A stretch of DNA of 36,461 nucleotides from Bacteroidota bacterium (lineage in GTDB: Bacteria > Bacteroidota > Bacteroidia > Bacteroidales > Tenuifilaceae): positions 1-36,461 of the forward strand of contig JAKQEF010000190.1 in NCBI GenBank assembly GCA_029558675.1. Direction: 5' to 3'. A model generated the notes under the pieces. The model saw nothing but the letters and a program-made list of their open reading frames with translations. It was not told the DNA's origin and made no database searches. Positions 644-15,630 of this stretch are shown here, one piece after another; the stretch's first letter is position 1; each line of letters begins with the position of its first letter. The position numbers were made by a program, and so were the translations under genes.

Positions 644-946
644 TTACCTTTTCGAAACCCTTTCCTTCACAGTCAATTTGGCATCCTGTAAAATTCTACC
701 CAGCTCATCGTCCTTTGCCACTTTTATCAAATCCTTGTCCAGCCCAAGTATGGCAAGCACCCTGAAGTAGTTGCCCAGAGAAACACCCTCGTTGCCCCGT
801 TCAATTTTTATGAGGGTATTGCGAGAAATATCTGCCCTCTCGGCAATCTGCTCCGCTGTGAGATTCCTGCGTAACCGGGCAAGCCTGATATTGTCGCCAA
901 AGGCTGACAGGGTTCTCTTTTGCGATGGAAGAAGGGGGCGTTTCAT
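644..946 (-). CDS. hipB: HipB-like antitoxin, XRE-family helix-turn-helix regulator
   Basis: This 100-residue protein has a helix-turn-helix of the Cro/CI (XRE) type at about residues 17-70 (GDNIRLARLRRNLTAEQIAE, then ISRNTLIKIERGNEGVSLGN). In hipBA systems such a protein binds the operon promoter and neutralises HipA. It sits directly upstream of the truncated hipA with a 2-bp gap, the usual order. The start is the ATG at 946-944. A perfect Bacteroidetes -7 element lies about 25 bp upstream, and three TAATG repeats overlap that region and may be its operator. Because the toxin has lost its kinase domain, HipB is now either an orphan regulator or decaying. Confidence 0.85.
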   Translation of the reverse strand: MKRPLLPSQKRTLSAFGDNIRLARLRRNLTAEQIAERADISRNTLIKIERGNEGVSLGNYFRVLAILGLDKDLIKVAKDDELGRILQDAKLTVKERVSKR

Positions 947-971
947 TTTTTGTAATGTTAATTATAATGCA

Positions 972-979
972 CAAATATA
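972..979 (-). promoter_or_regulatory. Putative hipB promoter (-7 element TATATTTG)
   Basis: Read on the minus strand this is TATATTTG, a perfect match to the Bacteroidetes -7 consensus TAnnTTTG, placed to give a leader of about 20 nt before the hipB ATG. No clear TTTG -33 box is seen. TAATG occurs on the plus strand at 953-957, 965-969 and 978-982, spaced 12-13 bp, overlapping the promoter; autoregulation by HipB through these repeats is possible but is inference. Confidence 0.5.
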
Positions 980-1061
980 ATGTATTTTGCTCAGTATAGT
1001 GAACTTTATCTTAAAAATAATCGAGAATATTTTTGAAACAGTGATACTTTTATAAGCGATT

Positions 1062-1133
1062 ATTTGGTTATTCAGTTATTCGCAAATTCGATTATTCGTT
1101 GATTTGCAGATTAGCGTCTCTGCGTCTTAGCGG
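1062..1133. repeat. Degenerate 8-bp array upstream of hipB
   Basis: Nine consecutive 8-bp words lie in one register: ATTTGGTT, ATTCAGTT, ATTCGCAA, ATTCGATT, ATTCGTTG, ATTTGCAG, ATTAGCGT, CTCTGCGT, CTTAGCGG. The last three recur almost exactly at 15503-15526, about 14 kb away. No open frame of interest is present. The whole 947-1564 gap between hipB and the four-helix-bundle gene consists of such repeats plus an inverted copy of the longer repeat unit described at 1228-1435. Confidence 0.75.
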
Positions 1134-1227
1134 TTAAACGGGGTACGGGGTAGGAGTTCATTGTTCCTAGTTCGTGGTTCGTGAAGCTCAGCGTCTATGA
1201 GCCTCTGCGGTTAAATACAATGAGCAA

Positions 1228-1435
1228 TTGACTGGTGGTATGGGCTTTAGTACCGCAGAGTTTTTTCTTTGCGGTATAACTTTAGTACCGCAGAGTTACG
1301 CAGAGATACCGCTAAGTTTCGCTGAGTTTTTGTTCTTAGCGGTACTTTGCTTCTTGGCGGTTCTTTGCGGCACTTCTTTTTTAGTACCGCAGAGTTACGC
1401 CAAGTACCGCTAAGATGCGCAAAGATGTGCAGAAC
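1228..1435. repeat. Decamer-based repeat, copy of the ~120-bp unit
   Basis: This stretch is built from the words AGTACCGCAGAG, ACGCAGAG, ACCGCTAAG, TTAGCGGTACT and CTTTGCGG, the same vocabulary as the tandem units at 13.1-14.3 kb. AGTACCGCAGAGTTACGC occurs twice, at about 1290 and 1382. A plus-strand open frame of 61 codons here (1228-1413) is only a by-product of the repeat words and is not called as a gene. Confidence 0.7.
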
Positions 1436-1462
1436 TTTTGTTCTTTGTGATTCAAATAGTAG

Positions 1463-1558
1463 ATTCGGTTATTCGGTTATTCGGTTATTTACATATTAAC
1501 AAATTAGCAAATTTACGAATTCACGCATTCACGCATCAGCGTATTAACGCATTAACGC
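1463..1558. repeat. 8-bp tandem array A (12 units, ATTnnnnn)
   Basis: Twelve octamers in perfect register: three ATTCGGTT, then ATTTACAT, ATTAACAA, ATTAGCAA, ATTTACGA, two ATTCACGC, ATCAGCGT, two ATTAACGC. The array ends 6 bp before the stop codon of the four-helix-bundle gene, which reads toward it. The same succession of words (ATTAGCAA, ATTTACGA, ATTCACGC) appears in array B on the other side of that gene, in the same orientation. Confidence 0.9.
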
Positions 1559-1564
1559 AAATTA

Positions 1565-1924
1565 CTATTCACTCAATTTATTATAAAGACTATTTAATTG
1601 ATTTGTTATTTTTTCATTCTTTTCTCGTAACTCTGAATATTGTTTTGCATCAATCCAATTAAAATCATTGGCTAAAATGATAAAGTTTAAAACTTCAATT
1701 GCTGAACCAAAGGCTTGGTTAATAAATCTTGCTTTGTCCTTTTGGGTATTACGCGCCATCCCCTCTGCAACGTTAGCTGCAATGCTTATGGCTGCTCTTC
1801 TTATTTGCATCACCATTCCATATCGTTCATCCAGAGGAAATTCTTTGGTAGCCTCATAAATATCTTTAACAAAAGAACGTGCCTCCTGCCAAACCTCTAA
1901 TCGCTCAAAGTAAAACTCGTGCAT
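1565..1924 (-). CDS. Four-helix-bundle protein (TIGR02436 / S23 family)
   Basis: The 119 residues match the four-helix-bundle family once called 'S23 ribosomal protein', found in 23S rRNA intervening sequences and as free-standing genes, and structurally related to the Avd accessory protein of diversity-generating retroelements. Typical pieces are FERLEVWQEARSFVKDIY near the start, IRRAAISIAANVAEG in the middle and a charged helical C-terminus. The molecular role is unknown; nucleic-acid binding has been proposed for relatives. The gene is isolated and tightly bracketed by two directly oriented 8-bp arrays, 6 bp from its stop and 4 bp from its start. No reverse transcriptase or rRNA gene is nearby, so it is neither a visible retroelement accessory nor an rRNA insert here. 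Confidence 0.88.
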   Translation of the reverse strand: MHEFYFERLEVWQEARSFVKDIYEATKEFPLDERYGMVMQIRRAAISIAANVAEGMARNTQKDKARFINQAFGSAIEVLNFIILANDFNWIDAKQYSELREKNEKITNQLNSLYNKLSE

Positions 1925-1928
1925 TATT

Positions 1929-2056
1929 ATTCGTTGATTCGTTGATTCGGTGATTCGGTTAATTACAAATTAGCAAATTTACGAATTCACGCATTAACGC
2001 ATTCACAAATTTACGAATTTACGAATTCACAAATTCACGCATTTACTCATTTACAA
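1929..2056. repeat. 8-bp tandem array B (16 units, ATTnnnnn)
   Basis: Sixteen octamers in unbroken register: two ATTCGTTG, ATTCGGTG, ATTCGGTT, AATTACAA, ATTAGCAA, ATTTACGA, ATTCACGC, ATTAACGC, ATTCACAA, two ATTTACGA, ATTCACAA, ATTCACGC, ATTTACTC, ATTTACAA. It starts 4 bp upstream of the ATG of the four-helix-bundle gene and runs into the stop codon of the doubtful membrane ORF at 2051-2263. On the minus strand it contains TAAATTTG (1981-1974), a TAnnTTTG match that could act as a promoter for the small gene. Confidence 0.9.
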
Positions 2057-2263
2057 AACTCCCAAAAATTTAAATATTCCTTTTTCATCGTTCATAGCTA
2101 AAAAAAAGCCATTGACCAAAATAAATGATACGTTGGTAAACAAAGCAGTGATTAAAACCGTAATGGGAGCAGCCAAATGCCCGAAAATGATAAAAATATA
2201 CATAACTTGCGGGGCTATTTGTCCGATAATGGGCACACAGTACCTCATGTATGGAATGACCAC
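2051..2263 (-). CDS. Doubtful small membrane protein or gene remnant
   Basis: A minus-strand frame with a GTG start encodes about 70 residues, mostly two hydrophobic segments (IAPQVMYIFIIFGHLAAPITVLI and LFTNVSFILVNGFFLA) followed by NDEKGIFKFLGVL. The frame stays open about 20 further codons upstream (into FYWYSAKCRV) without an ATG. I do not recognise a family. Its stop codon lies in the last word of array B, so it may be a gene fragment cut by the array. It could equally be non-coding. Confidence 0.3.
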   Translation of the reverse strand: MVIPYMRYCVPIIGQIAPQVMYIFIIFGHLAAPITVLITALFTNVSFILVNGFFLAMNDEKGIFKFLGVL

Positions 2264-2302
2264 TCTGCATTTTGCTGAATACCAGTAAAATATATCGAGT
2301 GG

Positions 2303-2315
2303 TGCAAATTTTGCA
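2303..2315. promoter_or_regulatory. Palindrome upstream of the giant gene
   Basis: TGCAAATTTTGCA is a perfect 6-bp inverted repeat around a central T, 53 bp before the ATG at 2368. It could be a regulator site. No clear TAnnTTTG promoter was found between 2264 and 2367. Confidence 0.25.
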
Positions 2316-2367
2316 TATATATAAGGTTACAAAAAAAATATATTACTACGATAAAAAGCCATACACT

Positions 2368-5300
2368 ATGATACGGAGAAATCTACTCAAGCCACAAGCC
2401 CCTTTTATACCACAAAACCTTTATGATAGAGTAAAAGCAATTGGCTTAACTCTTGTTGTTTTTGTTCTTGTTTTTGCAGGTAACGGAGCATGGGGGCAAA
2501 CCCGCACAGCATCCGTTTCGGGCAACTGGAATAACACAACAACTTGGGGTGGGCAATCTGTACCAACGGCGGTTAACGATGTGGTGATTAACGATGGTAT
2601 TAATGTAACCATAAATATTGCCAATGCTGAATGTCAGAGCCTAACCATTAACGGAGGGGGGAGCAACACCTATGTTACCGTAGGGGCCAATAGCCTTACC
2701 GTTGGGGGAGCAATAACGATTAATGCGGCAACTTCTAAAAATGTAAATAAGTATATTACTGTTAGTTCTGGTACGCTGAACTGTGCCTCCATTACCATGG
2801 CTGCAACGAGTACCAATACTCGGGATTGTTATATTTCAATCACTGGCACTGGCTCTGTGAACGTGTCCGGTGACATCACGATGAATGCGACACAAGGACA
2901 ACGAAATTATATTCTGTTTACCGGAAATGGGACATTAAATGTGGGAGGAACTATTACCGGGGGAACTATAACAAGCACAGCCGGTGGAGGCGGTACACCC
3001 GCAAGAGGCACCGTAAACTACAACGGTGCGGGCAACCAAGCGATGGGCAACTATACATACTATAACCTTACCGTATCCAACGGGGGCACCAAGTCGTTGC
3101 AGGGCAATACTACCGTTACCAATAGTCTTACCCTTAACTCGGGAGTACTAGATATTGGCAACTATAACCTAACCCTTAATGCTGCAAGCATTGTGGATGG
3201 GATACCCTTTAGCAACACCAATATGATAGTCACCAGTGGAACGGGCTTTGTGATACGGAATGCTAATTTAGGACTACCCGTTATCTACCCCATTGGATCG
3301 GATGGGTACTACGACCCCGTAACGGTAGATGCACGTAATCCCATTACAGGCACCATTAGTATGCGAACTGCCCAATCGGGTGCCCTTGGGCCCAAGTATG
3401 TGCAGCGCGTGTGGGATATACAAACGAGTGTTAACAGAGCCACTTTAACCCTTACCTTTAACTACGAATCGACCGAGGCCAGCGAGGCTCCCACATTTAT
3501 CAAGTACCGTCAGGGAGCAGGTGCCTGGGGCGATCCCACGGGTACCTCATCATTTGGGAGCAATAGTTTTACCACAACGGGCAACACAAGCATAACTACA
3601 GCAGGCACACACTCTTTCACTGCGGGCACTGTGGGCACCTACTACAGCTACCAAACGGGTAATTGGAATGTGGCCGATACGTGGACCCGCGACCCAGGGG
3701 GTACCCATTTAGTTGATCCCGCCGTACCGGGCAACGACGATGTGGTGGTGATACTCGATGGCCGAACGGTAACGCTCACCGCCGATGTGGCCACCACGGG
3801 GCTCGATATCACCCTAAACCCCATGGGTATTATTGATATGGGAGGGTATCAATTTACCCAGCCTATTCAATCGTTAAGGGGGCAGGGTACCCTCAGGTTG
3901 TCATCCACCAATTTCCCTACGGTAACCAGCAATTTGTTTGTAGATGCAGGAGGGGGAACAACAGAGTACTACAATGGTGCCAATTTCAACCTGCCTAACG
4001 CTCAGATCACATACAATAATCTTAGTATCAATGTACCCGGTGGTGTTATAGCCACTCAGATGAATAACCTTACCCTTAATGGCGATTTAACGGTAAAAAC
4101 GGGTACATACCGTATCAACGATAATACCAGCGCCCGCAGGCAGCTAACCGTGTATGGCGATGTAACCGTTAATAGTGGCGCCTCGCTCACGGTGGGCACG
4201 GGGGTTACAAATGGTACTACCAATCCATATGGTATAGCAGGAGGCATATCGCCTTTTCTAAACTACTACGACCAGTATTCGCACAGGGTGGTGCTCCATG
4301 GCGACCTTACCAATAATGGTACCGTGCGATTTACCAATCTGGCTTACCCCGTATACAATGCATTTCCTCCCACTACGCTTGGAGCAACAACCGGTTTTGC
4401 CACGGTCTATTTCAGGGGTGCCACGCACAATACCGTAGCCTGCAACGGCACCACCGATTTTTACAACCTGGTGGTGGACAAGGGGATTGACCAGTCGTAC
4501 CACCTTACCGTGTATTCATCCAATTACCATTACTTCCGCCTTTTTGGAGCCAATACGGCTGGTGGTTTCGATGCAGGAGCTAACCCCAACCTGCGCAAAG
4601 CGCTCTGGATCCGAAACGGTTCCCTAGTGCTACAGGGGTTAACCATAATTCCTTCATTATCGGAAGGTACCTGTGGAGATGGTGCTTCTCCCAACTCCGA
4701 CTATTTTGTACCTGCCAATGGTGCATTAGTATTGGATGGCCCCGAGGTTGTGGTACTCTCCACCGCCGACAATCACCAGGAGGTAAACCTAGCCTACGGC
4801 GTAGCGGCGCCCAACGATGGCGCCATGGGGATAACGCAGGGGGGGTGCAGCTCATTCTCTATTCTGGGTAGGCTGCAGGTGAACGATGGTTACTTCTCCA
4901 CCCGCGAGTCGGGTGGGTTTATCACCTGGGACTGGGCTTCGGGTCAGTTTATAATCAATGGCGGTACGGTGGATGCCAAGCAGTACAGAGCAGCTGCAGC
5001 AGGAGTGGGTGGAGGATTGGCTTCTTTTACTCAAACTGGTGGGCATCTTCTGCTACGTGGCCGCTTCCAGCGAATTCCAACGGCATACGGTTCTATTGAC
5101 GACTTGAAAGATTTCTCTACATCTACACTTAATACTACCCGTGCAACAGAGGGATCGCTTGCTAGTGCTGTGGGTACTTTCAACCTTAACGATGCCTCCA
5201 ATGTCTTTACCATGTCGGGTGGCACTATTACCATTTATGATGTGACTGGCACGGACGCTGGACAGCAGAAAGCATTTGAGGTTAAAGCATCGGCGGGCAA

Positions 5301-8300
5301 TATCAATGTTTCGGGGGGCACCGTTGAGATAGTGCCCACTACAGGTACTGTCCTTGCAGATCCGGCATACTATTATATTGAGTCCACAGCCCCAGTGGGC
5401 AACCTTACTGTGAACAGGGTGAGTGGTGCTGCTGAAGTACGGCTTCGAACCAACCCTTTGACCGTGCTTTCGAATTTTAGTATTGATGTGGGTGATTTCC
5501 AAGCCAATAACTTTAATGTTACCATAGGTGGCAACTTTACAGTTGGGGCCAGTGGTACATACACCAGCGGTACAAACCGAACAGTTTTCAACGGGGCGGG
5601 TACGCAAACCATTACAAACAGTACTGGTGCCGTGCTTAATTTCAACCGTTTTATTGTGAGTAAACCCGATGGGAGGGAGTTGCGCTACAATTCTACTCCA
5701 CAGGTTAACATCGCCGACTCGCTTAGAATACTTTCAGGAACTTTCCGTACCTATAGTAGAATAATTAATGTGTATGGGCATGTGGAGAATAATGGCATAA
5801 GTTTAACAACTTCGGGCTATTTAGTGATGAACGGCGATGCCGCTCAAACCATTAGCGGAAATGGAGTGTTTACCAACCTTCGTCTCAATAAACCCGCAGC
5901 GGGCACAGCCGATGTGACCCTGAAAAATGATATTACTGTAGAAGGGATACTCAACTTTGCGGGCCATGCCACAGGATACAAGCGGTTAAACCTGGATGAG
6001 TACAATATACTTTTTGGACCCAATGCGTCGGTTACAGGATACAGCGATACTCGCTTTATCTATACCCTTGGTCAGGTGGGTAATGGAGGTGTTTCGAAGG
6101 TGTACTCAGCAACATCAAATTCATTCACATTCCCCGTAGGGGCTCCCTCCACACGTCATGCGGCTCCCCATTATACCCCTGCAACCATAAGCCTATCGGC
6201 CGACCCAAGCACCTATGGAACGGTAACCGTAGTGCCCGTGGGGGCGGTTCACTTTGCCACCGATCCCCAGAATAGGTCGTTGACCTACTACTGGAGGGTG
6301 AAAACTGAGGGTTTCGATGGTATAGTACCTGGCTCGGTAAGCCACTCCTACACCTACTCGCAGGACGATGTGGTTGAGGGTGGCGATGTGTCTGAAGCAG
6401 GATATGTACCCGCCCGCTTCGATAATTCTACATTGACCTGGAGCCGTGGCACCACTGCGAGTATTAACACCACAACCAATGTGATGGACGGCCCCTGGCT
6501 ATCGGGTGTTGACTATATTGACGGCGATTTCACCGCAGGTGATGATACTCCAACCAATCCGTTTGGGACGCCACAAACCTTTTATAGCAGGCAATCGGGT
6601 AGGTGGGGACTTACTTCAAGTTGGTCAACTACAGGTCATGGCGGAGCTCCAGCACCAAGGGTTCCTGGCCTTGCAGATATTGTAATTATTGGAAATGGTG
6701 ATGCAATAACTTTAAATACATTACCGGAAACTCCTAATAACGATGCTCGAAGTTGCGCAAATTTACGGATAGAGGCGGGTGCTTCTCTTGATATTGGCTA
6801 TAATCCGGGGTGTAACTTTGCCGTGGTATCGTCGCATCCCAATGGCAATGGGCTTTTTAGGGTGGCATGCGATAGAGGACCACTTCTTGCCAGTACCGTA
6901 AGAACCTTTCAATTCCCCTCGGGCGATTTCACCGATTTTAATAAAAATCTGGGGACTACCGATTTATATACTACTAATCCCTTAGCAGGAACTACTTTCT
7001 ATCTTCCCAATGGCACAACATCCTATGGAAATTTAATTATTAGTCCTTTTGGTGGATCGAATATTATTTTTGCAAACCACGATGTGCTGATCTATGGAAC
7101 GCTAACGATTAAGGGACAGAATGCCGACTCGTGGTTCCTTCCCACCTGGAATATAAATTATCCAACCGCACCGGCCGTAAGGGTTTCGAAAACCATTACC
7201 ATTATGGGCAATATGGATATACAGGGGGGGTCCTTTGGCTGGTATGGCGGCAACGGAGGAGGAGCCCAGAATGTGGTGGTACATGGTGATATTATTGTTG
7301 GAGAATGGGCAGGTATTAATGTTTGGAGCAGAAATCAAGGCCAGAGTCTCTCCATTGGAGGCAGTTTATACAACAATACAAGAAATGCTATTGAGGGTGG
7401 CGTTAGCTGTAGGAGTTATGTGTGTTTAAATGCCGTGGATGTTACTTTTTTCGGCGATAACGATGCTGTGGTGCATACCGCCAGTGGCACCGATTATGCA
7501 GGAGGGTCGGGATCAGGTTACGGATACACCGATCCGGCCAGTCCATTACATCGCAGTGCAACCATATTTAGCAATGTAACCGTAAATAAGGGCAATAGCC
7601 AAGCCACTACTCTTCCCTTTACGGGGGGCACAGTTTCTACCCCAGTTGATAATTGGCTTACTCTGCAGAATGGTACTCTAAGTTACCAACTTACCAACCC
7701 ACGCCGCGATTTTACGGTTAGCACCACTACGGCCCTTACCATACCCGGCACGGCCGGGTTAGAGGTTAATCTGCAAGGAAACTCACACGGTGTAAGTACA
7801 CTAATTGCCAACGCCAATAGCAATACCAATGATCTTTTCCTTAACGGTAAATTAACGGTAGCCAATTCCACAGTGTATGTGGGTCCAACAACCAGTCCTA
7901 ATAACAATAACGACATTGAATACGGTGGGGGTGGCCTTTCAGAAATAGACGTGCAGGATGGTGGTACGCTGGTGGTTAACGGCCAGATCCGTATGAGCCC
8001 TTCATCCACAGCGGGTGTGTTGAAGTATCGTCAGAGCGGCAACAGCCGGGTGGTAATCAACGGTCAAGAGGCAAACTTAACAAAAGCCAAACTAGAGGTA
8101 TATAATCCCGGTAGTGTATTTGAAATGACGGGTACCAGCACCCTAACCATAGTGCGTGGCGGAGGAACCACCTATGGCGACCTGTATCTACGCCCCGAAA
8201 CCAGCAATGTAAGCGGGTCGAGTACCATACAATTTACCCAAACTCCACCGGTTGGTCCTGTGGTTGACCTAATTCAAAGCTATTTGCTCGATGCAACAGT

Positions 8301-11300
8301 GCCTTTGAACAATCTAACCATTTCAGGGAAAACTACTGGTACCAATAGGAATGCTACCGTTTCTTTGTTTATTAGTCCGTTGCAATTGAATGGTGATTTG
8401 ACTATCGATAATAATAGAAGTGTTTTCGATGCCAATAGTGTGTATAGCGTCAACGTATCGTTGAAGGGTAATTTCGTTAATAACGGAACGTACAATTACT
8501 ATAATAACCTTACAACATTCAATGGTAATATTCAGCGTTTGGAGGGTTCGGCTGTTACCAATTTCTACAACCTAACGGTAAATCCCATTACCTCGCTTAC
8601 TCTCATTAGGGATATTACCGTGGACAACGACCTGACGTTAAGCTCGGGACAGCTGCTCAATGGTACATATACCATAAATCTGAAACGCCACCTTATAAAC
8701 AATGCCAACTACAATGGGGATGCTGCAACCGGTGGTGTTGTACTCAATGGAACCGTACAGCAGGAGATATCGGGAACCGGCACATTTGGCCGCTTGGAGC
8801 TGAACAACGCCCTTGGGGCAAGGATAAACAACAGCATCACTTTGCAAAGGAATATAAGGCTGACCAATGGTGTTTTTAGCCTTAACAAGTTTCTGATGAC
8901 CATGGGGGTAAATAGTAATATTGAGGGGAGTGGCTTTGGGGTAACCAAAATGATTACCACCGATGGGGTATTCAGCAATGTGGGGATTCGTAAATATTTC
9001 CCTGTTTATAGCGGTGCTGCACAAACATTTACCTATCCCATGGGCACCTCAGGCAAGTACACCCCTGCGGTGTTGACATTCACCAACAATGACAATGTGG
9101 GATATATCCGCGTCAACAATATCAATAGTAATCATCCGTCGGCCTACGATCCCAACAATGTATTAGACTATTACTGGGAGTTGGAAAGCTATGGAGTATC
9201 AAATTTTGACGGGAATGTGGTATTCAACTACAAGGATGACGATGTTAGGGTTACGGGGGCCAATACAGAGGCCGATTATATTGCAGCGGCAATGATGATT
9301 CCGGGTAACAGTTGGGCAAAATATGGTACCGACGATGTGGATGAGGATAATAATACCATAATATTCCGTTATGTTGGGGCAAACAACCTGAGTGGCGAGT
9401 ACACGGCTGGTATTGATAATGCTTTACCCGACAATGTTCCTCAGTTTACCAATATCGATACTGATAATTGGAATGTTGTATCCAATTGGGAGCAAACGGG
9501 AGGCGATCCATATACCCTTACAGGACCGCCCAATGGTTTTATTGTCACCATTCGCAGCGGAACCACGGTAACCGTTAGCGAGAACTATGCACGAACCTAT
9601 CGTACACGTATCGATGGTACCCTTCATTTCGATCCCGACTACTATGGCCACAGCCTTGGAACCGTAACGGGAAGTGGAACCCTACATCTGGAGTCGGGTA
9701 CTTTCCCTGCAGGGCGTTACACACAGTTTTTCGACTGTTCAAACAACAGTATTCTTGAGTATGGGGGTACTACAGACTATACAATTATTGCCGACCTGTA
9801 TAGTACTTTGCCAAACCTTTATTTTGTGGGCACGGGTACGCGGAATATCCCCAATAAGGACCTTACCATTTGTAGACGTTTGTTGATTAATGGACCTACG
9901 CTTAATAATTTGAGTAATAGACGATTAACTATTCAGGGTACTTTCGAGCGCCTTGCGGGTTCATTTAGTAGTGGAGCAGGTGCAAATGCGGTGGTCAGCT
10001 TTGCTGGCTCGGCTCCACAAACCATTGGCGGGGCGCTTGGTAACTTCACGGGTGATAATGCATTTAACAATTTGGAGATAGATAATCCGGATGGCTTAAC
10101 CATTAATGATGCGGGGGCCATTGAGGTGAAACGTAACCTATTGCTCACCTCGGGTATTATCACCACATCATCAAATGCTACGTTGACCATTATCAATACA
10201 TCTACTAATTGTGTAACTCCTGCCGAAGGACAGGCAACGTCGTTTGTGAATGGACCCCTTACCAAATTGATAAATCCTGGCGATAGATTTGTTTTCCCAA
10301 TTGGAAAAGGAACAACCCTCGGTCATAAATTTGAGATCTCAGCAACTCAATCCTCTGGTGCTGCATTGTGGACAGCCGAGTATTTTACACCCAACCCCAC
10401 ATTTGCCGATTTCACCGATCCGATCACCTATGTCAATTCGCAGGAGTACTGGACGGTTTCTGGCCCTATAGGAGGTCAGGCCTATGTGCACTTAACATGG
10501 GATCCTAGTAGCGATCTAACCCCCCTAATGACTGAAAACGGAGTGTCTGATATGAGGGTTGCAGGATGGAATACGGGTACATCGAGTTGGGAGGAAATTT
10601 CGTCATCGGCATTAGGGGATGGAAGTAACGGCACCGTACGTACATTTGGCAGGGTTGCCATCCCCGGTACGGGCTTTGGCAATTTCACCACGGCCTGTAT
10701 CAATATTACCAAACCGCGGGCACGTTTTAGCCCCTCAGGACCCATTTGCGGCAATGCGGGAATACCGTTAACCTTCTCGGGAGTTGATGGCACAAACCTC
10801 AATTTTGTTCTAACCTATCGTAAGGGAGGTGTTCTACAGCCTGCGGTAACGGTTAACAGCCTTCCTTACACTCTGCCCACTGATGCTACAGGCAATACCT
10901 ATCAGCTGGTCAGCTTTACCTACAACAATCTGCCCCATGCTGCACCTGTGCTTACGGGTGTTGTAGATGCTACCATAGTTACTGCATACACAGTGCCCAC
11001 GCCTGCCAATGCCGGCTCTGACCAATCGTTATGCGGAGCCACATCGGCCACCCTTGACGGAAATAACCCAATTGTAGGAACCGGTTTATGGAGCATTTTC
11101 AGCGGAGACGGGGGTACGGTAATTCAACCCACGGTTAACAATAGCGAATTCAACGGGGTGAATGGCAATACCTACATACTTACATGGACCATTTCCAATG
11201 GCGGCTGTACATCGTCCGATAATGTTACCATATCGTTCCCGCTAATGCCCGTTCAGCCCGATCATTTTGTATTATATACCGATGAGGTATGTCAGGGCGA

Positions 11301-11862
11301 TACGGAGGTTCGCTACTCCGTGGTAAACGATCCTTCGTTAACCTACACTTGGGGCTATGATGGTGAGCATGTTAATATTACGGGTACTGGCAATGTTGTG
11401 GAGGTTGACTTTTTGGGCAATGCCACATCGGGCTATATAAGCGTTTTCACCACTAATGACTGCGGCGATAGCGACCCGCTTGAACTATATGTAACGGTTT
11501 TTGAACGGCCTACTGCTACGCTTTCGGTTATTTCACCCCATGATGCAATTTGCGATGGTGATAATACAGAGATAACCGTTACTCTAACAGGAGGAACTTC
11601 GCCATACAGTTTTGATATATTTAACGGTACGGACACGGAGACCGTTACCGGAGCGACCTCGCCATATACTTTTATTCCCGATGCCGCTTATGTTCCTACA
11701 TGGTTGGGACCGGGGACAAGCAATACCTACACCTATTCGATTCCTGTCGTAACTTCCGCAAACGGATGTAGCAACTCGGGAGACAATACGGTGGATGTTG
11801 TGGTGTATAAAATACCCGAAACGGGGCCTCAGTATCACATTCCCAATACGCATGATATGTGA
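2368..11862 (+). CDS. Giant secreted modular beta-helix / PKD protein (3,164 aa)
   Basis: The frame is open from a TTG at 2272, but the ATG at 2368 gives a proper signal peptide: MIRR, hydrophobic core at residues 24-38, likely cleavage after AWG (43). Four modules follow. Each opens with a W-x5-W type motif (SGNWNNTTTW near 50, TGNWNVADTW near 430, SGRWGLTSSW near 1408, TDNWNVVSNW near 2365), continues as many short beta repeats of the NNLTV/LNGDLTV/LTLNSGxLD kind that should form a beta-helix, and closes with a beta-sandwich marked YPIG/FPVG/YPMG/FPIG (about 306, 1254, 2223, 2642). From residue 2779 onward there are Ig/PKD-like domains with paired cysteines. It ends in TGPQYHIPN without a recognisable type IX sorting domain. 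The likely role is cell-surface adhesion or matrix. The gene stands alone, followed by a terminator. Confidence 0.85.
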   Translation: MIRRNLLKPQAPFIPQNLYDRVKAIGLTLVVFVLVFAGNGAWGQTRTASVSGNWNNTTTWGGQSVPTAVNDVVINDGINVTINIANAECQSLTINGGGSNTYVTVGANSLTVGGAITINAATSKNVNKYITVSSGTLNCASITMAATSTNTRDCYISITGTGSVNVSGDITMNATQGQRNYILFTGNGTLNVGGTITGGTITSTAGGGGTPARGTVNYNGAGNQAMGNYTYYNLTVSNGGTKSLQGNTTVTNSLTLNSGVLDIGNYNLTLNAASIVDGIPFSNTNMIVTSGTGFVIRNANLGLPVIYPIGSDGYYDPVTVDARNPITGTISMRTAQSGALGPKYVQRVWDIQTSVNRATLTLTFNYESTEASEAPTFIKYRQGAGAWGDPTGTSSFGSNSFTTTGNTSITTAGTHSFTAGTVGTYYSYQTGNWNVADTWTRDPGGTHLVDPAVPGNDDVVVILDGRTVTLTADVATTGLDITLNPMGIIDMGGYQFTQPIQSLRGQGTLRLSSTNFPTVTSNLFVDAGGGTTEYYNGANFNLPNAQITYNNLSINVPGGVIATQMNNLTLNGDLTVKTGTYRINDNTSARRQLTVYGDVTVNSGASLTVGTGVTNGTTNPYGIAGGISPFLNYYDQYSHRVVLHGDLTNNGTVRFTNLAYPVYNAFPPTTLGATTGFATVYFRGATHNTVACNGTTDFYNLVVDKGIDQSYHLTVYSSNYHYFRLFGANTAGGFDAGANPNLRKALWIRNGSLVLQGLTIIPSLSEGTCGDGASPNSDYFVPANGALVLDGPEVVVLSTADNHQEVNLAYGVAAPNDGAMGITQGGCSSFSILGRLQVNDGYFSTRESGGFITWDWASGQFIINGGTVDAKQYRAAAAGVGGGLASFTQTGGHLLLRGRFQRIPTAYGSIDDLKDFSTSTLNTTRATEGSLASAVGTFNLNDASNVFTMSGGTITIYDVTGTDAGQQKAFEVKASAGNINVSGGTVEIVPTTGTVLADPAYYYIESTAPVGNLTVNRVSGAAEVRLRTNPLTVLSNFSIDVGDFQANNFNVTIGGNFTVGASGTYTSGTNRTVFNGAGTQTITNSTGAVLNFNRFIVSKPDGRELRYNSTPQVNIADSLRILSGTFRTYSRIINVYGHVENNGISLTTSGYLVMNGDAAQTISGNGVFTNLRLNKPAAGTADVTLKNDITVEGILNFAGHATGYKRLNLDEYNILFGPNASVTGYSDTRFIYTLGQVGNGGVSKVYSATSNSFTFPVGAPSTRHAAPHYTPATISLSADPSTYGTVTVVPVGAVHFATDPQNRSLTYYWRVKTEGFDGIVPGSVSHSYTYSQDDVVEGGDVSEAGYVPARFDNSTLTWSRGTTASINTTTNVMDGPWLSGVDYIDGDFTAGDDTPTNPFGTPQTFYSRQSGRWGLTSSWSTTGHGGAPAPRVPGLADIVIIGNGDAITLNTLPETPNNDARSCANLRIEAGASLDIGYNPGCNFAVVSSHPNGNGLFRVACDRGPLLASTVRTFQFPSGDFTDFNKNLGTTDLYTTNPLAGTTFYLPNGTTSYGNLIISPFGGSNIIFANHDVLIYGTLTIKGQNADSWFLPTWNINYPTAPAVRVSKTITIMGNMDIQGGSFGWYGGNGGGAQNVVVHGDIIVGEWAGINVWSRNQGQSLSIGGSLYNNTRNAIEGGVSCRSYVCLNAVDVTFFGDNDAVVHTASGTDYAGGSGSGYGYTDPASPLHRSATIFSNVTVNKGNSQATTLPFTGGTVSTPVDNWLTLQNGTLSYQLTNPRRDFTVSTTTALTIPGTAGLEVNLQGNSHGVSTLIANANSNTNDLFLNGKLTVANSTVYVGPTTSPNNNNDIEYGGGGLSEIDVQDGGTLVVNGQIRMSPSSTAGVLKYRQSGNSRVVINGQEANLTKAKLEVYNPGSVFEMTGTSTLTIVRGGGTTYGDLYLRPETSNVSGSSTIQFTQTPPVGPVVDLIQSYLLDATVPLNNLTISGKTTGTNRNATVSLFISPLQLNGDLTIDNNRSVFDANSVYSVNVSLKGNFVNNGTYNYYNNLTTFNGNIQRLEGSAVTNFYNLTVNPITSLTLIRDITVDNDLTLSSGQLLNGTYTINLKRHLINNANYNGDAATGGVVLNGTVQQEISGTGTFGRLELNNALGARINNSITLQRNIRLTNGVFSLNKFLMTMGVNSNIEGSGFGVTKMITTDGVFSNVGIRKYFPVYSGAAQTFTYPMGTSGKYTPAVLTFTNNDNVGYIRVNNINSNHPSAYDPNNVLDYYWELESYGVSNFDGNVVFNYKDDDVRVTGANTEADYIAAAMMIPGNSWAKYGTDDVDEDNNTIIFRYVGANNLSGEYTAGIDNALPDNVPQFTNIDTDNWNVVSNWEQTGGDPYTLTGPPNGFIVTIRSGTTVTVSENYARTYRTRIDGTLHFDPDYYGHSLGTVTGSGTLHLESGTFPAGRYTQFFDCSNNSILEYGGTTDYTIIADLYSTLPNLYFVGTGTRNIPNKDLTICRRLLINGPTLNNLSNRRLTIQGTFERLAGSFSSGAGANAVVSFAGSAPQTIGGALGNFTGDNAFNNLEIDNPDGLTINDAGAIEVKRNLLLTSGIITTSSNATLTIINTSTNCVTPAEGQATSFVNGPLTKLINPGDRFVFPIGKGTTLGHKFEISATQSSGAALWTAEYFTPNPTFADFTDPITYVNSQEYWTVSGPIGGQAYVHLTWDPSSDLTPLMTENGVSDMRVAGWNTGTSSWEEISSSALGDGSNGTVRTFGRVAIPGTGFGNFTTACINITKPRARFSPSGPICGNAGIPLTFSGVDGTNLNFVLTYRKGGVLQPAVTVNSLPYTLPTDATGNTYQLVSFTYNNLPHAAPVLTGVVDATIVTAYTVPTPANAGSDQSLCGATSATLDGNNPIVGTGLWSIFSGDGGTVIQPTVNNSEFNGVNGNTYILTWTISNGGCTSSDNVTISFPLMPVQPDHFVLYTDEVCQGDTEVRYSVVNDPSLTYTWGYDGEHVNITGTGNVVEVDFLGNATSGYISVFTTNDCGDSDPLELYVTVFERPTATLSVISPHDAICDGDNTEITVTLTGGTSPYSFDIFNGTDTETVTGATSPYTFIPDAAYVPTWLGPGTSNTYTYSIPVVTSANGCSNSGDNTVDVVVYKIPETGPQYHIPNTHDM

Positions 11863-11887
11863 TAGTGGGAAAAAATAGAGTAGGGTT

Positions 11888-11923
11888 AACTTGTGTTCCG
11901 GAAAGTTGGGACACAAGTTTTTT
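11888..11923 (+). terminator. Rho-independent terminator after the giant gene
   Basis: A 12-bp stem (AACTTGTGTTCC with GGGACACAAGTT, one G-T pair) and an 8-nt loop are followed by a run of six T. It starts 25 bp after the stop codon of the giant gene and separates that transcript from the polysaccharide locus downstream. Confidence 0.88.
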
Positions 11924-12031
11924 CGCATATGGAAAAATGGTATATGGGCCGTCACGCAGGAAAGGGCGCTGCCTTAAACTTGTTTTGTGGATAGCTGTTA
12001 ATGAAGAGTAATATAAGTAAGGTTTTATAGT

Positions 12032-12039
12032 TACTTTTG
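12032..12039 (+). promoter_or_regulatory. Promoter of the polysaccharide locus (-7 element TACTTTTG)
   Basis: TACTTTTG fits the Bacteroidetes -7 consensus TAnnTTTG exactly. Transcription would begin around 12043-12048, just where the structured leader begins. No good TTTG -33 box is seen at the normal spacing. The 5' leader before the wza-like ATG at 12293 would be about 250 nt long. Confidence 0.6.
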
Positions 12040-12042
12040 TAC

Positions 12043-12120
12043 GCCCTTAACGTTCTCCCGCAGAATTTGGCTGTGGGTTACCGGGCGAAGCTGTGAAGAC
12101 ACCTGAAGTTTTCTTTTTTT
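12043..12120 (+). ncRNA. Putative structured RNA leader upstream of wza
   Basis: Right after the promoter, GCCC (12043-12046) can pair with GGGC (12083-12086) around a 7-bp hairpin CCCGCAG/CTGTGGG (12057-12063 with 12071-12077, loop AATTTGG). Next come a purine-rich, unpaired-looking stretch (GAAGCTGTGAAGACACCTG) and a T-rich run at 12109-12120. The arrangement resembles an attenuator or antitermination leader such as those controlling capsule operons through NusG-like factors. That function is inference; no RfaH/UpxY-type gene lies in the window and I cannot name an Rfam family. Confidence 0.45.
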
Positions 12121-12173
12121 GATTGGTTATAAAGGTTGCGGCGCTCTGCGCTTTATGCTTGGTCTATAAGTCC

Positions 12174-12204
12174 AAACCTGACAGGTTTCCAAAACCTGTC
12201 AGGT
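12174..12204. repeat. Inverted repeat (CCTGACAGG-type) in the wza leader
   Basis: ACCTGACAGGTTT and AAAACCTGTCAGGT face each other across CC, and each arm is itself nearly palindromic (CCTGACAGG, CCTGTCAGG). Such elements are dispersed in many Bacteroidota genomes. It lies within the presumed 5' leader of the polysaccharide operon, 89 bp before the wza start, and could form a strong RNA hairpin. No T-run follows, so it is not called a terminator. The rest of 11924-12292 shows no gene. Confidence 0.75.
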
Positions 12205-12292
12205 CTTTCAAGCTGCAGCGCAACATTGTACAAGAAAATATTAGAAGTTATTGTTGAAAAAAATAATAAACAAACAGGATAAAAATAACCCA

Positions 12293-13063
12293 ATGAGAGT
12301 CAAGTTTATCGTTACCATAGGCATAGTATTGTTGTTGTTAACAGGATGCAACCGCAGAAGCCAATTGCTCTATATGAAAAACCTGAATCCGGCCGGAGAG
12401 GAGTTGGTAGCCAAGCCACCTCAGTATAAACTGCAACCCGGTGATTTGCTGTTTATACAGCTTATCACCTCCAGCCCCGAGATAAGTCAGGCATTCAACA
12501 ACCCCACCGGATCGCAATATTTATCCCGTGCCAATGATGAGACTTCCCTTTATTTTAGTGGATATACACTTGATGAAGAGGGATTTGTGTCGTTACCATT
12601 TTTGGGTAGTGCCAATTTATTGGGACTTACTTTAGATGAGGCACGTAATGAGATACGCACATTAACCGAAAAGATGTACAAGGATGCCTCTGTAATCGTT
12701 AAGTTGGCCAATTTTCGGATAACAGTGGTGGGCGAAGTCAGGCGACCGGGAACTTTCAGAAACTTCAACGATTACCTAAGTATCTTTGAGGCTTTGGCAC
12801 AGGTGGGCGATATCAGCGAGAACGGGAATAGAAAAAATGTACTAGTAGTTCGGCAAACAGACACCGGGAGCAAAACCTTCAGGGTTAATTTAAACGACAA
12901 ATCGGTTTTTACATCGGAAGCATTCTATCTGCTCCCCAACGATGTGATTATTGTGGAGCCCATAGGGAATAAAATATTCCAAATGAATGTGCCGTATATA
13001 ACGTTAACTTTTTCTACCATTAGCACACTAATCCTGCTCTACAATTTTATCACGAGATTGTAA
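12293..13063 (+). CDS. wza: Polysaccharide export lipoprotein, Wza family
   Basis: The frame is open from a TTG at 12251, but the ATG at 12293 gives a clean lipoprotein signal with lipobox LLTGC (Cys19); 256 residues. It has the poly-export domain (YKLQPGDLLFIQLITSS at about 42-58, then DEEGFVSLPFLG) and one SLBB-type domain (FRITVVGEVRRPGTF), and ends in a hydrophobic segment that may cross the outer membrane (ITLTFSTISTLILLYNF). Wza-type proteins form the outer-membrane exit for capsule or exopolysaccharide and work with a Wzc-type co-polymerase; here that partner lies 2.6 kb downstream, separated by repeats, a broken gene and galE. It is the first gene after the locus promoter. Confidence 0.9.
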   Translation: MRVKFIVTIGIVLLLLTGCNRRSQLLYMKNLNPAGEELVAKPPQYKLQPGDLLFIQLITSSPEISQAFNNPTGSQYLSRANDETSLYFSGYTLDEEGFVSLPFLGSANLLGLTLDEARNEIRTLTEKMYKDASVIVKLANFRITVVGEVRRPGTFRNFNDYLSIFEALAQVGDISENGNRKNVLVVRQTDTGSKTFRVNLNDKSVFTSEAFYLLPNDVIIVEPIGNKIFQMNVPYITLTFSTISTLILLYNFITRL

Positions 13064-13104
13064 TTCCATGGTATGATACTCTGCGTACCTATGCGGCATA
13101 AAAA

Positions 13105-13270
13105 AAGAAGTAACGCAAAGAGCCGCAAAGGTGCAAAGCTCCGAAGGCTCGGAGCGCAAAGGAAAGAACATAGCTACACTTAGCGCAACTTAGCGGAATC
13201 TCTGCGTACCTCTGCGGTATTAAAATAGAAGTAACGCAAAGAAACGCAAAGGAGCGAAGTTGCGCAAAGG
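13105..13270. repeat. Repeat units left of the GxxExxY pseudogene
   Basis: One full unit (from GAAGTAACGCAAAG at about 13105 to CTCTGCGGTATTAA) and the first third of a second (from about 13228) belong to the roughly 120-bp family described for 13700-14265. The unit contains the hairpin GCTCCGA-AGGC-TCGGAGC. The second copy is interrupted about 18 bp before the start codon of the broken GxxExxY gene. Confidence 0.85.
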
Positions 13271-13287
13271 ATACACAATGGAAAGAA

Positions 13288-13665
13288 ATGACTGAAAACG
13301 AAATTTCAAATATCGTCATTGGCAGTGCAATTGAAGTTCACAAACAACTTGGGCCCGGGCTTTTGGAGTCAGCATATCAGGAATGCCTTGCTTATGAGTT
13401 AAAACAGCAGGGATTACAGGTTTTAAAAGAAGTCCCCATGCCGATTGTTTAAAAAGAAGTAAAATTAGACCATGGATACAGGTTGGATTTACTGGTAAAT
13501 AGTAAGGTTGTGATTGAAATTAAATCGGTAGAATTTATTTCTGATATTCACGAGGCACAGTTATTAACCTATTTAAAATTAGGAAATTTCAAGTTGGGGT
13601 TACTTTTAAATTTTCACACAACCGTACTGAAAAACGGGATTAAAAGAATGGTAAATAACCTATAA
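13288..13665 (+). pseudogene. GxxExxY protein gene with an in-frame stop
   Basis: Reading from the ATG at 13288 gives MTENEISNIVIGSAIEVHKQ, LGPGLLESAYQECLAYEL and so on, which is the GxxExxY family (TIGR04256; the G..E..Y motif is GLLESAY). TAA at 13450-13452 interrupts the frame after VPMPIV, exactly where relatives usually have Tyr before KEVKLD. The rest (DHGYRLDLLVNSKVVIEIKS to the end) continues in the same frame to 13665. A single base change (TAT/TAC to TAA) explains it. The family's function is unknown; its Asp and E-x-K spacing (RLDLLV, IEIKS) resembles PD-(D/E)xK nucleases. It is flanked on both sides by the 120-bp repeat units. The second half could be translated alone from the ATG-equivalent at 13483, but this seems unlikely to work. 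Confidence 0.88.
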
Positions 13666-13699
13666 AAACTATCGCATACTTTGTGCAGTTCAGTTGTAC

Positions 13700-14265
13700 T
13701 AAGAGGTTGTACCGCAAAGAACCGCGAAGAAGCAAAGTTACGCAAAGGAAAGAACTCTTCCATACTCTGCGCAACTTAGCGGAATCTCAGCGCACCTCTG
13801 CGGTACTATGAAGTAGTAACGCAAAGAAACGCAAAGGAGCAAAGCTCCGAAGGCTCGGAGCGCAAAGGAAAGAACTCTTCCACACTTAGCGAAACTTAGC
13901 GGTACTTGGCGCATCTCTGCGGTACTAAGAAGTAGTAACACAAAGAGCCGCAAAGAAGCAAAGAAACGCAAAGAAACAAAGCCACGCAAAGGAAAGAACA
14001 TAGCTACACTTAGCGCAACTTAGCGGTACTTGGCGTACCTCTGCGGTACTAAGAAGTAGTAACGCAAAGAAACGCAAAGGAGCAAAGCTCCGAAGGCTCG
14101 GAGCGCAAAGGAAAGAACTCTTCCACACTTAGCGAAACTTAGCTGTACTTGGCGCATCTCTGCGGTACTAAAAAAGAAGTACCGCAAAGAACCGCAAAGA
14201 AGCAAAGTCACGCAAAGAAAAGAACTCTGCCATACTCTGCGAACCTCTGCGGTACTAAAAACTTG
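13700..14265. repeat. Tandem ~120-bp near-palindromic repeat units (about 4.5 copies)
   Basis: Unit starts (GAAGTAGTAACGCAAAG or variant) lie at about 13810, 13929, 14053 and 14177, a period of 119-124 bp. The left half is built of 10-bp words (AACGCAAAGA, AACGCAAAGG) and the right half of others (ACTTAGCGCA, ACTTAGCGGT, ACTTGGCGTA, CCTCTGCGGT). The two halves are roughly reverse complements (AGTAACGCAAAG against CTCTGCGGTACT), so one unit could fold into a long imperfect hairpin. Some units add the inner hairpin GCTCCGA-AGGC-TCGGAGC. The long minus-strand frames here come from the repeat words and are not genes. This fills the 671-bp gap between the pseudogene and galE. Confidence 0.88.
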
Positions 14266-14336
14266 TATTACAAAGAAAAATCCCTGAGCGGCACCTTGAG
14301 CCGGAGTTCAAGGCAGTTACACAACAAGGCTTAAAA

Positions 14337-15398
14337 ATGTCAAAAATACTGATTACCGGAGGAACAGGATACATCGGTTCGCATACCGTGGTGGAACTTA
14401 TGGAGAGTGGATACGATGTGGTGATTGTGGACAATCTTTCCAACTCCACCACTGCTCCCCTGGAGGGAATAAAGCGTATCACCGGCAGAAAGCCTGAGTT
14501 TGTGGAGGCCGATTGCTCCGACCTCGGTCAGATGAGGGCTCTCTTCGAAAGATACCCTCAAATCCGTTCCGTTATACATTTTGCTGCCCTGAAGGCAGTG
14601 GGCGAATCTGTGGAAAAACCTTTGGATTATTACAGGAACAACATTCTCTCGGTGATCAACCTTTTGGAACTACTTGGCAAGCGGGGCGGGAATTTTGTTT
14701 TTTCCAGCTCGTGCACGGTGTACGGTCAGCCTGACATTCTACCCGTAACCGAGGAGTCGCCCATAAAAAAGGCACTTTCACCCTATGGCAATACCAAGAG
14801 GATTGCTGAAAATATCATTGAGGATACCGTGGCCGCCATGGGCAATATCAATGCCATTGCGTTGCGCTACTTTAATCCCATTGGAGCCCATCCCAGTGCT
14901 GAGATTGGGGAGTATCCCGTGGGCAAACCCGATAACCTGATCCCGTTTATAACCCAAACCGTGAGAGGGATATGGGAAAAACTGCAGATTTTTGGTTCTG
15001 ATTATAACACTCCTGATGGAACGGCCATTCGTGATTATTTCCATGTGGTGGATTTGGCCAAGGCCCATGTTGTGGCCCTTGAACGATTACTGGAAGATAA
15101 AAATCGAAAACCCTACGAGGTTTTTAACGTGGGGGCAGGCAGAGGTATTACCGTATTGGAAATAGTGAATACTTTTGAGAGGGTAACCGGGCAGAAAGTA
15201 AATTACGAGTTTACAAGACGCAGGGCAGGCGATATAGAAAAGGTGTGGGCCGATACCACCCTTGCTGAAAAGGAGTTGGGCTGGAGGGCAGAAAAGACAT
15301 TAGAAGAGGCGTTGCTCTCGGCGTGGAAGTGGGAAGAGAGATTATTAAGGAGAAAGGGAAAGGGAAAGGGGAAAGGGAAAAGAGACAATGAGCATTGA
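14337..15398 (+). CDS. galE: UDP-glucose 4-epimerase
   Basis: This 353-residue extended short-chain dehydrogenase interconverts UDP-glucose and UDP-galactose (or the N-acetyl forms) and supplies galactose-type precursors in the cytoplasm. The NAD-binding GGTGYIG is at residues 8-14, the SSSCTVYG serine motif follows, and the catalytic Tyr150/Lys154 pair sits in SPYGNTK. LRYFNPIGAHPSAEIGE and the C-terminal RRAGDIEKVWADTTLAEKEL are typical GalE. The last 16 or so residues (RRKGKGKGKGKRDNEH) are not; they are encoded by a GGGAAA-rich tract, and the stop codon TGA is the first three bases of a 38-bp dispersed repeat. The native C-terminus has therefore probably been replaced by repeat-derived sequence, without touching the active site. 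Confidence 0.93.
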   Translation: MSKILITGGTGYIGSHTVVELMESGYDVVIVDNLSNSTTAPLEGIKRITGRKPEFVEADCSDLGQMRALFERYPQIRSVIHFAALKAVGESVEKPLDYYRNNILSVINLLELLGKRGGNFVFSSSCTVYGQPDILPVTEESPIKKALSPYGNTKRIAENIIEDTVAAMGNINAIALRYFNPIGAHPSAEIGEYPVGKPDNLIPFITQTVRGIWEKLQIFGSDYNTPDGTAIRDYFHVVDLAKAHVVALERLLEDKNRKPYEVFNVGAGRGITVLEIVNTFERVTGQKVNYEFTRRRAGDIEKVWADTTLAEKELGWRAEKTLEEALLSAWKWEERLLRRKGKGKGKGKRDNEH

Positions 15399-15433
15399 GC
15401 AATGCGCTGCCCTGAGCTTGTCGAAGGGAGCAA
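15396..15433. repeat. 38-bp dispersed repeat, copy 1 (CCCTGAGCTTGTCGAAGGG type)
   Basis: It is identical over 38 bp to 15537-15574. It contains CCCTGAGCTTGTCGAAGGG, a sequence found dispersed in many bacterial genomes. Its first three bases are the galE stop codon. The 232-bp gap between galE and wzc (15399-15630) holds only such repeats: this copy, four octamers in register at 15440-15471, a hairpin, and copy 2. Confidence 0.85.
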
Positions 15434-15439
15434 TGAACA

Positions 15440-15477
15440 ATTTGCTAATTCGTTGATTCGGCTATTCGGTTATTCGT
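15440..15477. repeat. Short 8-bp array between galE and wzc
   Basis: ATTTGCTA, ATTCGTTG, ATTCGGCT and ATTCGGTT lie in register, followed by ATTCGT. These are the same words as in arrays A and B around the four-helix-bundle gene. ATTAGCGT, CTCAGCGT and CTTAGCGG follow after the hairpin (15503-15526), repeating the end of the array at 1110-1133. Confidence 0.8.
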
Positions 15478-15484
15478 ATTCTCT

Positions 15485-15502
15485 CCCGACAGAATTGTCG
15501 GG
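15485..15502. repeat. Hairpin CCCGACA-GAAT-TGTCGGG
   Basis: A perfect 7-bp stem with a 4-base loop is inserted within the octamer array, between ATTCT and ATTAGCGT. No T-run follows, so it is not a classical terminator. Confidence 0.75.
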
Positions 15503-15536
15503 ATTAGCGTCTCAGCGTCTTAGCGGTAAAATGCAA

Positions 15537-15574
15537 TGAGCAATGCGCTGCCCTGAGCTTGTCGAAGGGAGCAA
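15537..15574. repeat. 38-bp dispersed repeat, copy 2
   Basis: Identical to 15396-15433 and in direct orientation, 104 bp apart. It ends 57 bp before the wzc start codon. Confidence 0.85.
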
Positions 15575-15630
15575 GGAACAATGATGGCATAAGGATGGAA
15601 TTGAATAAATAGAAAAAATTAGAGATAGCA

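Follow-up and report, generated by a model that had tools for sequence, protein, structure and literature searches.

Locus-specific short-word arrays around TIGR02436 genes of Bacteroidota and a possible gene-plus-array module at operon junctions

Introduction

In REP/RAYT systems, a single small gene has repeat words on either side, and further copies of these words lie scattered through the genome without the gene; the gene encodes a HUH (Y1) transposase, and the repeat is one palindromic REP. Arrays of short tandem words have their own history, the STRR heptamers of cyanobacteria having reportedly been the subject of a paper of 1990.

The intervening sequence (IVS) of 23S rRNA is described in excerpts of PMC4990558 as an S23 ORF located between inverted ends, with a 28-bp stem and excision by RNase III, and has been proposed to be selfish or mobile; IVP ORFs have likewise been described for CPR bacteria, in insertions within 16S and 23S rRNA. 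As for short words, excerpts report GGGAATC heptamers of Xanthomonas and Nostoc in inverted pairs, with 70 cases in Xcc (PMC4692102), TAACTGA heptamers for which horizontal spread is suspected with no evident mechanism (PMC4679880), STRR hairpins of unknown function (PMC2670836) and, in a reference cited in PMC4748335, STRRs located within the gene for RNase P RNA.

Several bacterial lineages are reported to carry short-word arrays, with no agent named that would generate or mobilise them, and no role is known for TIGR02436 and GxxExxY, two widespread protein families. A literature search that covered few subscription journals returned no link between word arrays and genes of the TIGR02436 or GxxExxY families, and none appears in the available portions of PMC4990558, PMC4692102, PMC4679880, PMC2670836, PMC4748335, PMC8934634, PMC10910872, PMC8700078, PMC11270868 and PMC11637426. 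Here, we describe a TIGR02436 gene enclosed by two octamer arrays, and compare it with its counterparts in related genomes.

Results

The window locus

The window, i.e. the whole stretch of 36,461 nucleotides that was analysed, belongs to a Tenuifilaceae assembly (G000; 2.06 Mb, 64% complete) and carries the following features:

1062 to 1117, no strand: third octamer array, solo, 7 units
1245 to 1440, no strand: mosaic of words in a second style (ACCGCAGAGTTACGC / CTTTGCGG), as around the GxxExxY gene; limits by eye
1463 to 1558, no strand: array of 12 ATTnnnnn octamers (ATT present in 11), 6 bp past the gene stop
1565 to 1924, minus strand: TIGR02436 / PF05635 four helix bundle gene (23S rRNA intervening sequence protein family), 119 aa, open
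1929 to 2056, no strand: array of 16 ATTnnnnn octamers (ATT present in 15), 4 bp upstream of the gene start
13075 to 13270, no strand: word arrays upstream of the GxxExxY gene, in alternating orientation (CTCTGCGTACC / ACGCAAAGA); limits by eye
13288 to 13665, plus strand: GxxExxY (TIGR04256) gene, interrupted by a single internal TAA; matched by the HMM at 13303-13653, start and stop by eye
13712 to 14255, no strand: word arrays downstream of the GxxExxY gene, in alternating orientation, with a higher-order period of ~119-243 bp
15440 to 15479, no strand: short octamer array, solo, 5 units

The initial annotation had described 12 and 16 octamers in the same orientation, separated from the gene by 6 and 4 bp, and our analysis confirmed this arrangement. 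The longest unbroken ATT runs of period 8 counted 9 (array 1463-1558) and 11 (array 1929-2056), while 20,000 base shuffles of each bracketing array never generated a run above 4. The two arrays, which have the same orientation, share an exact stretch of 31 bp (at 1499 and 1965), and both switch word type along the plus strand, with ATTCGnnn words coming first, followed by ATTTACGA- and ATTCACGC-like words, which correspond to the ATTCG family read on the opposite strand. The flanks of the gene are direct rather than inverted (alignment score of 47 direct versus 12.5 inverted), a layout that we attribute to each array holding words of both orientations. Both arrays fold weakly, with z values of -1.1 to -2.9. 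Additional word families (GTACGGGGTACGTGG, GTTCCTGGTTCCTAG) are seen within the same intergenic mosaics (window 1140-1190; L066 640-720), and an ORF of 3196 aa at 2272-11862, repetitive and probably of a secreted or surface type, adjoins the element. A search of window positions 900-15600 against Rfam gave no rRNA family match; its sole hit, mir-5366 at 23.7 bits, was discarded as chance-level (gathering score of 73).

The window protein matched TIGR02436 with 113.7 bits (cut-off 24) and PF05635 with 120.3 bits (cut-off 33.8), and has a relative in the PDB (2gsc, E 1.7e-17). The proposed kinship to IVS proteins is thus well founded, while that to Avd is weak, the matches to bAvd (26.1 bits, cut-off 40) and DivGenRetAVD (27.3 bits, cut-off 80) remaining below their cut-offs; 23S_rRNA_IVP and bAvd were the only Pfam matches. 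No TIGR02436 match was obtained in phage records. A longer TIGR02436 protein (~145-157 aa; L219, G018 at ~263.7 kb) seems to recur in many genomes of the family; the L219 gene, at 263.7 kb of G018, has no visible arrays, and this longer lineage is possibly domesticated. On cyanobacterial plasmids, two TIGR02436 genes lie within CRISPR operons (L315 and L308; cas10-cmr3, cas6-cas4), which may be why a figure legend of PMC10910872 counts 23S rRNA IVP among the domains linked to CRISPR.

Octamer arrays in the genus

Counting arrays of at least six exact units, with adjoining rows merged, we found nine octamer arrays in G000, of which two abut the TIGR02436 gene, the only one found in this assembly (2.06 Mb, 64% complete), and seven lie elsewhere; two array pairs bracket other ORFs, of 1059 and 224 aa. 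The same-genus genome G001 carries a near-identical copy of the window locus and eight octamer arrays, two of them at this counterpart; its remaining three TIGR02436 genes have other words, and GTTCCTGG words were also observed beside one TIGR02436 gene of this genome (L063). None of 29 TIGR02436 loci of relatives has an ATT-octamer array of at least five units. The proposal that octamer arrays are specifically associated with TIGR02436 was therefore rejected, both on these 29 loci and within the source genome, where seven of nine arrays are away from the gene and two pairs enclose other ORFs.

Matched flanks at TIGR02436 genes of relatives

Regions around the best-scoring TIGR02436 matches in the family yielded 74 genes, the window included, of which 72 were kept after leaving out the window-identical copy of G001 and a 95-aa fragment. 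As controls, we kept 302 of 304 genes from the same regions; two GxxExxY genes were left out, the two best-scoring controls of a first flank run being GxxExxY genes. Upstream and downstream flanks were compared by local alignment, and the 99th percentile of controls was employed as threshold. Inverted flank matches exceeded this level for 53 of 72 TIGR02436 genes versus 2 of 302 controls (P=2e-31) and direct matches for 9 of 72 (P=0.12); these and the following flank-test P-values are optimistic (too small), since orthologous loci are not independent. Altogether, 57 genes were matched in either orientation and 15 in neither. Bracketing by repeats, as a general idea, therefore extends to the relatives in the form of inverted short words, whereas same-orientation octamers are not the typical layout.

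The match is specific to each locus. It was lost when an upstream flank was paired with the downstream flank of another locus (P=2e-27), and the own arm pair scored better than any other pair in the same genome at 51 of 69 loci. Replacing local alignment with a k-mer statistic gave weaker results (36/74 in the family and 5/30 in the phylum). The arms consist of short degenerate tandem words of 7-10 nt, typical family examples being GTTGATG, GGTTGAG, GTCTGAAA and GGTGAGC. Among 61 aligned loci, the upstream arm had G>C in 58 and C>G in 2; because the arms are inverted, the G-rich strand runs inward on both sides. GAGTCGCTAAG is present in both arms of L278 and in neither of the arms shown for the orthologous sites L274 and L275, as expected if the arms are rewritten together. 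Where the flanking genes are co-directional with each other, the TIGR02436 gene of the family runs along in 55 of 55 cases, versus 35 of 45 for controls (Fisher P=2e-4).

A phylum-wide draw of Bacteroidota contained TIGR02436 in 153 of 198 genomes. Sampling one locus per genome, 12 of 30 loci were above the 99% level of controls (P=9e-11). Eight further named loci were considered, of which one was too short and six were analysed, five exceeding 13.0, although L266 and L092 seem to be one contig. Plasmids gave 19 matching records, and the 13 regions examined comprised 12 from cyanobacteria and one from Gemmatimonadota. The cyanobacterial TIGR02436 loci carry heptamers, with words of the GGGAGTA and GGGAACA types facing each other across the gene; 7 of 12 loci exceeded the 95% level (P=0.0013) of controls, which were 77 plasmid genes, and 5 of 12 scored higher than every control. 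Exceptions to the co-directional arrangement occur on these plasmids, L307 and L310 being antisense to both neighbours.

States of operon junctions

Of 23 genomes compared at the sufB-sufC junction, nine are empty (28-48 bp), six have a gene with arrays (545-576 bp, all co-directional), two have a decayed or undetected gene between arrays, four have gene-less inverted words and two show other arrangements. At sufD-sufS, where 21 of 24 loci were compared and 20 could be read, G009 is empty and its congener G010 carries a gene-less inverted word pair; G022-G024 have words only, similar to those of the complete element in their congener G026 (L104). The sister genomes G012 and G013, with 96-98% identity at other shared elements, have different gene lineages and different words at this site. 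At a third site (L069), the element is present in G024 and G026, G023 carries inverted words of a different kind without a gene (102 bp), and G025 a stretch of 194 bp with a remnant. The range of states at sufB-sufC and sufD-sufS (empty, gene with arrays, decayed, arrays alone) indicates that the unit is gained and lost. Indeed, the view of array and gene as one unit, put forward from the window alone, is borne out in relatives both by the matching of flanks and by these junctions.

Plain vertical descent does not fit the sequence identities at sufB-sufC: SufC of G018 is 97% identical to that of G013, yet the cargo is only 59% identical and the words differ, and for G010 (SufC 92%) the cargo is 70% identical. 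Inspection by eye of sufB-sufC, sufD-sufS and the L069 site revealed no target-site duplications or clean insertion boundaries.

GxxExxY genes and gene-less arrays

The second bracketed gene of the window matched TIGR04256 with 146.3 bits (cut-off 35); it has one internal stop and is intact in G001. The words around it are ACGCAAAGA / CTCTGCGG, alternating and of decamer type, and the minus strand of 13720-13850 folds well (z -4.7). Window positions 14124-14251 match L061 5348-5478, which is the G001 counterpart of window ~1299-1429. TIGR04256 was detected in 20 of 27 genomes of the family. Of 30 GxxExxY loci, 27 entered the flank test, one of which was too short, and 15 of the 26 analysed exceeded the 99% level in inverted and 10 of 26 in direct orientation.

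Arrays are frequent away from these genes. In 1.2 Mb of G018, we counted 67 noncoding arrays of period 6-12, in clustered mosaics, most of them far from cargo genes, and a query with one element gave 44 matches in G015, mostly to its downstream arm. An unbiased scan of the same 1.2 Mb of G018 for inverted pairs returned 10 pairs, the best of which encloses a TIGR02436 gene and another a GxxExxY gene. The gene is thus not needed for arrays, given that arrays are dispersed without it, while TIGR02436 and GxxExxY genes are mostly located at arrays. Across different sites, the similarity of words did not clearly follow that of proteins (Mantel rho 0.069, a value reached in 46 of 500 permutations), and recognition of the words by the protein found no support in this comparison.

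Discussion

TIGR02436 genes of the family are mostly bracketed tightly, by arms with a locus-specific inverted match, and are present or absent at fixed operon junctions. As the best account of these observations, to which we give about an even chance, we propose that most TIGR02436 genes of Bacteroidota belong to a compact intercistronic and probably selfish module of gene plus word arrays, gained and lost together. Such an element would consist of arms of 7-10 nt degenerate tandem words, with the G-rich strand inward and usually inverted, around one small gene, and would usually sit between co-directional operon genes; arms and gene would spread and be lost together. Its four-helix protein, as a relative of IVS proteins and Avd, could bind nucleic acid and, by acting on the arms of its own element, help insertion or maintenance. 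The two arms of one element have words in common that are missing from other loci of that genome, and in other species the site may be occupied by an element with different words, which suggests joint rewriting of arms ~0.4-0.5 kb apart; we speculate that G-rich words added to both 3' ends at a break would fit the arm polarity. The window locus would be a member whose arms are part of an octamer family dispersed across the genus and lie in direct order. Several observations weigh against this account: the direct layout of the window itself, the many arrays dispersed without a gene, the lack of target-site duplications or clean insertion boundaries at the three sites inspected, word similarity not clearly following protein similarity, the weaker outcome of the k-mer statistic and the 15 of 72 genes matched in neither orientation.

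Other explanations were weighed against this module. The bracketing in the window could be mostly due to chance, with one of the intergenic octamer arrays dispersed throughout the genus falling on each side of the gene. The abundance of such arrays (nine in the 2.06 Mb of G000 and eight in G001), the two G000 pairs around other ORFs and the different words at the other three TIGR02436 genes of G001 all go in this direction. Nevertheless, the arrays lie 4 and 6 bp from the gene, as tight as arms in relatives, they share 31 bp of exact identity, they flank the sole TIGR02436 gene detected in the assembly, and 57 of 72 family genes have matched flanks of either orientation, which together make such a coincidence improbable. 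Another reading takes the arms for by-products, namely words generated by slippage and template switching in tolerant intercistronic gaps, where TIGR02436 and GxxExxY genes merely live. It would explain the many gene-less arrays and, going by excerpts of PMC4692102 and PMC4679880, the heptamer arrays common in unrelated bacteria, but it does not anticipate that own arms match each other and not other loci of the genome in 51 of 69 cases, or that only 2 of 302 control genes have matched inverted flanks, and we consider it unlikely.

Alternatively, the arms could act in RNA, forming a stem around the gene in the operon transcript that is cut by RNase III as in the 23S IVS; the insertion would be harmless and the arms kept complementary by selection. 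The IVS layout itself, as given in part of PMC4990558 (an S23 ORF enclosed by terminal inverted repeats, with a stem of 28 bp and excision by RNase III), and the co-directional placement of elements within operons are in line with this reading. Arm mismatches, however, are not enriched for G.U (91) relative to A.C (100), and the sense-strand duplex is more stable at only 45 of 102 loci, so that there is no sign of selection at the RNA level; in addition, the window arrays fold weakly, and in cyanobacteria L307 and L310 run antisense to the genes on either side. We thus assign a low probability to an RNA-level role. That the window gene serves a diversity-generating retroelement (DGR) as an Avd-like accessory is extremely improbable: weak matches to bAvd and DivGenRetAVD speak for it, but both scores are under cut-off, and RVT_1, absent from G000 (in an assembly that is 64% complete), occurs in 10 of 27 genomes of the family although all 27 have TIGR02436. 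The DGR reading was rejected on the lack of a reverse transcriptase in this 64% complete assembly.

The gene-plus-array module may have a wider form, which we put forward tentatively and regard as somewhat unlikely: a minimal mobile module found across phyla, in which one non-transposase gene (four-helix TIGR02436 or GxxExxY) is held in inverted word arrays that are rewritten together on both arms, and whose gene-less derivatives are the source of short-word arrays such as the cyanobacterial STRRs. If true, this would provide an agent for the spread of STRR-like arrays, which has had none known. A tie between short-word arrays and the TIGR02436 and GxxExxY families also gives each side a testable partner.

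Comparison with described systems places the locus as follows. The likeness to Avd of DGRs is a distant protein similarity; the window protein differs in scoring under cut-off, with no reverse transcriptase found. Like the STRR, GGGAATC and TAACTGA heptamers, the words of the elements are short, tandem and intergenic, and sometimes form inverted pairs; the words at cyanobacterial plasmid TIGR02436 genes resemble STRR heptamers, whereas those of the window are octamers and thus differ. The 23S rRNA IVS (e.g. of Coxiella) has a protein of the same family and a gene enclosed by inverted ends, as seen for 53 of 72 family genes. In contrast, the elements described here are intercistronic, their arms are tandem word arrays that vary by locus, and the window locus has no rRNA family match around it (900-15600) and direct rather than inverted flanks. 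As in REP/RAYT, the repeat words are dispersed elsewhere in the genome (nine arrays in G000, eight in G001); the differences are that the window protein has no HUH/Y1 transposase domain among its Pfam matches and that the repeats are arrays of 7-10 nt words instead of one palindromic REP. In layout, the module resembles both the 23S rRNA IVS and REP/RAYT, and is a member of neither.
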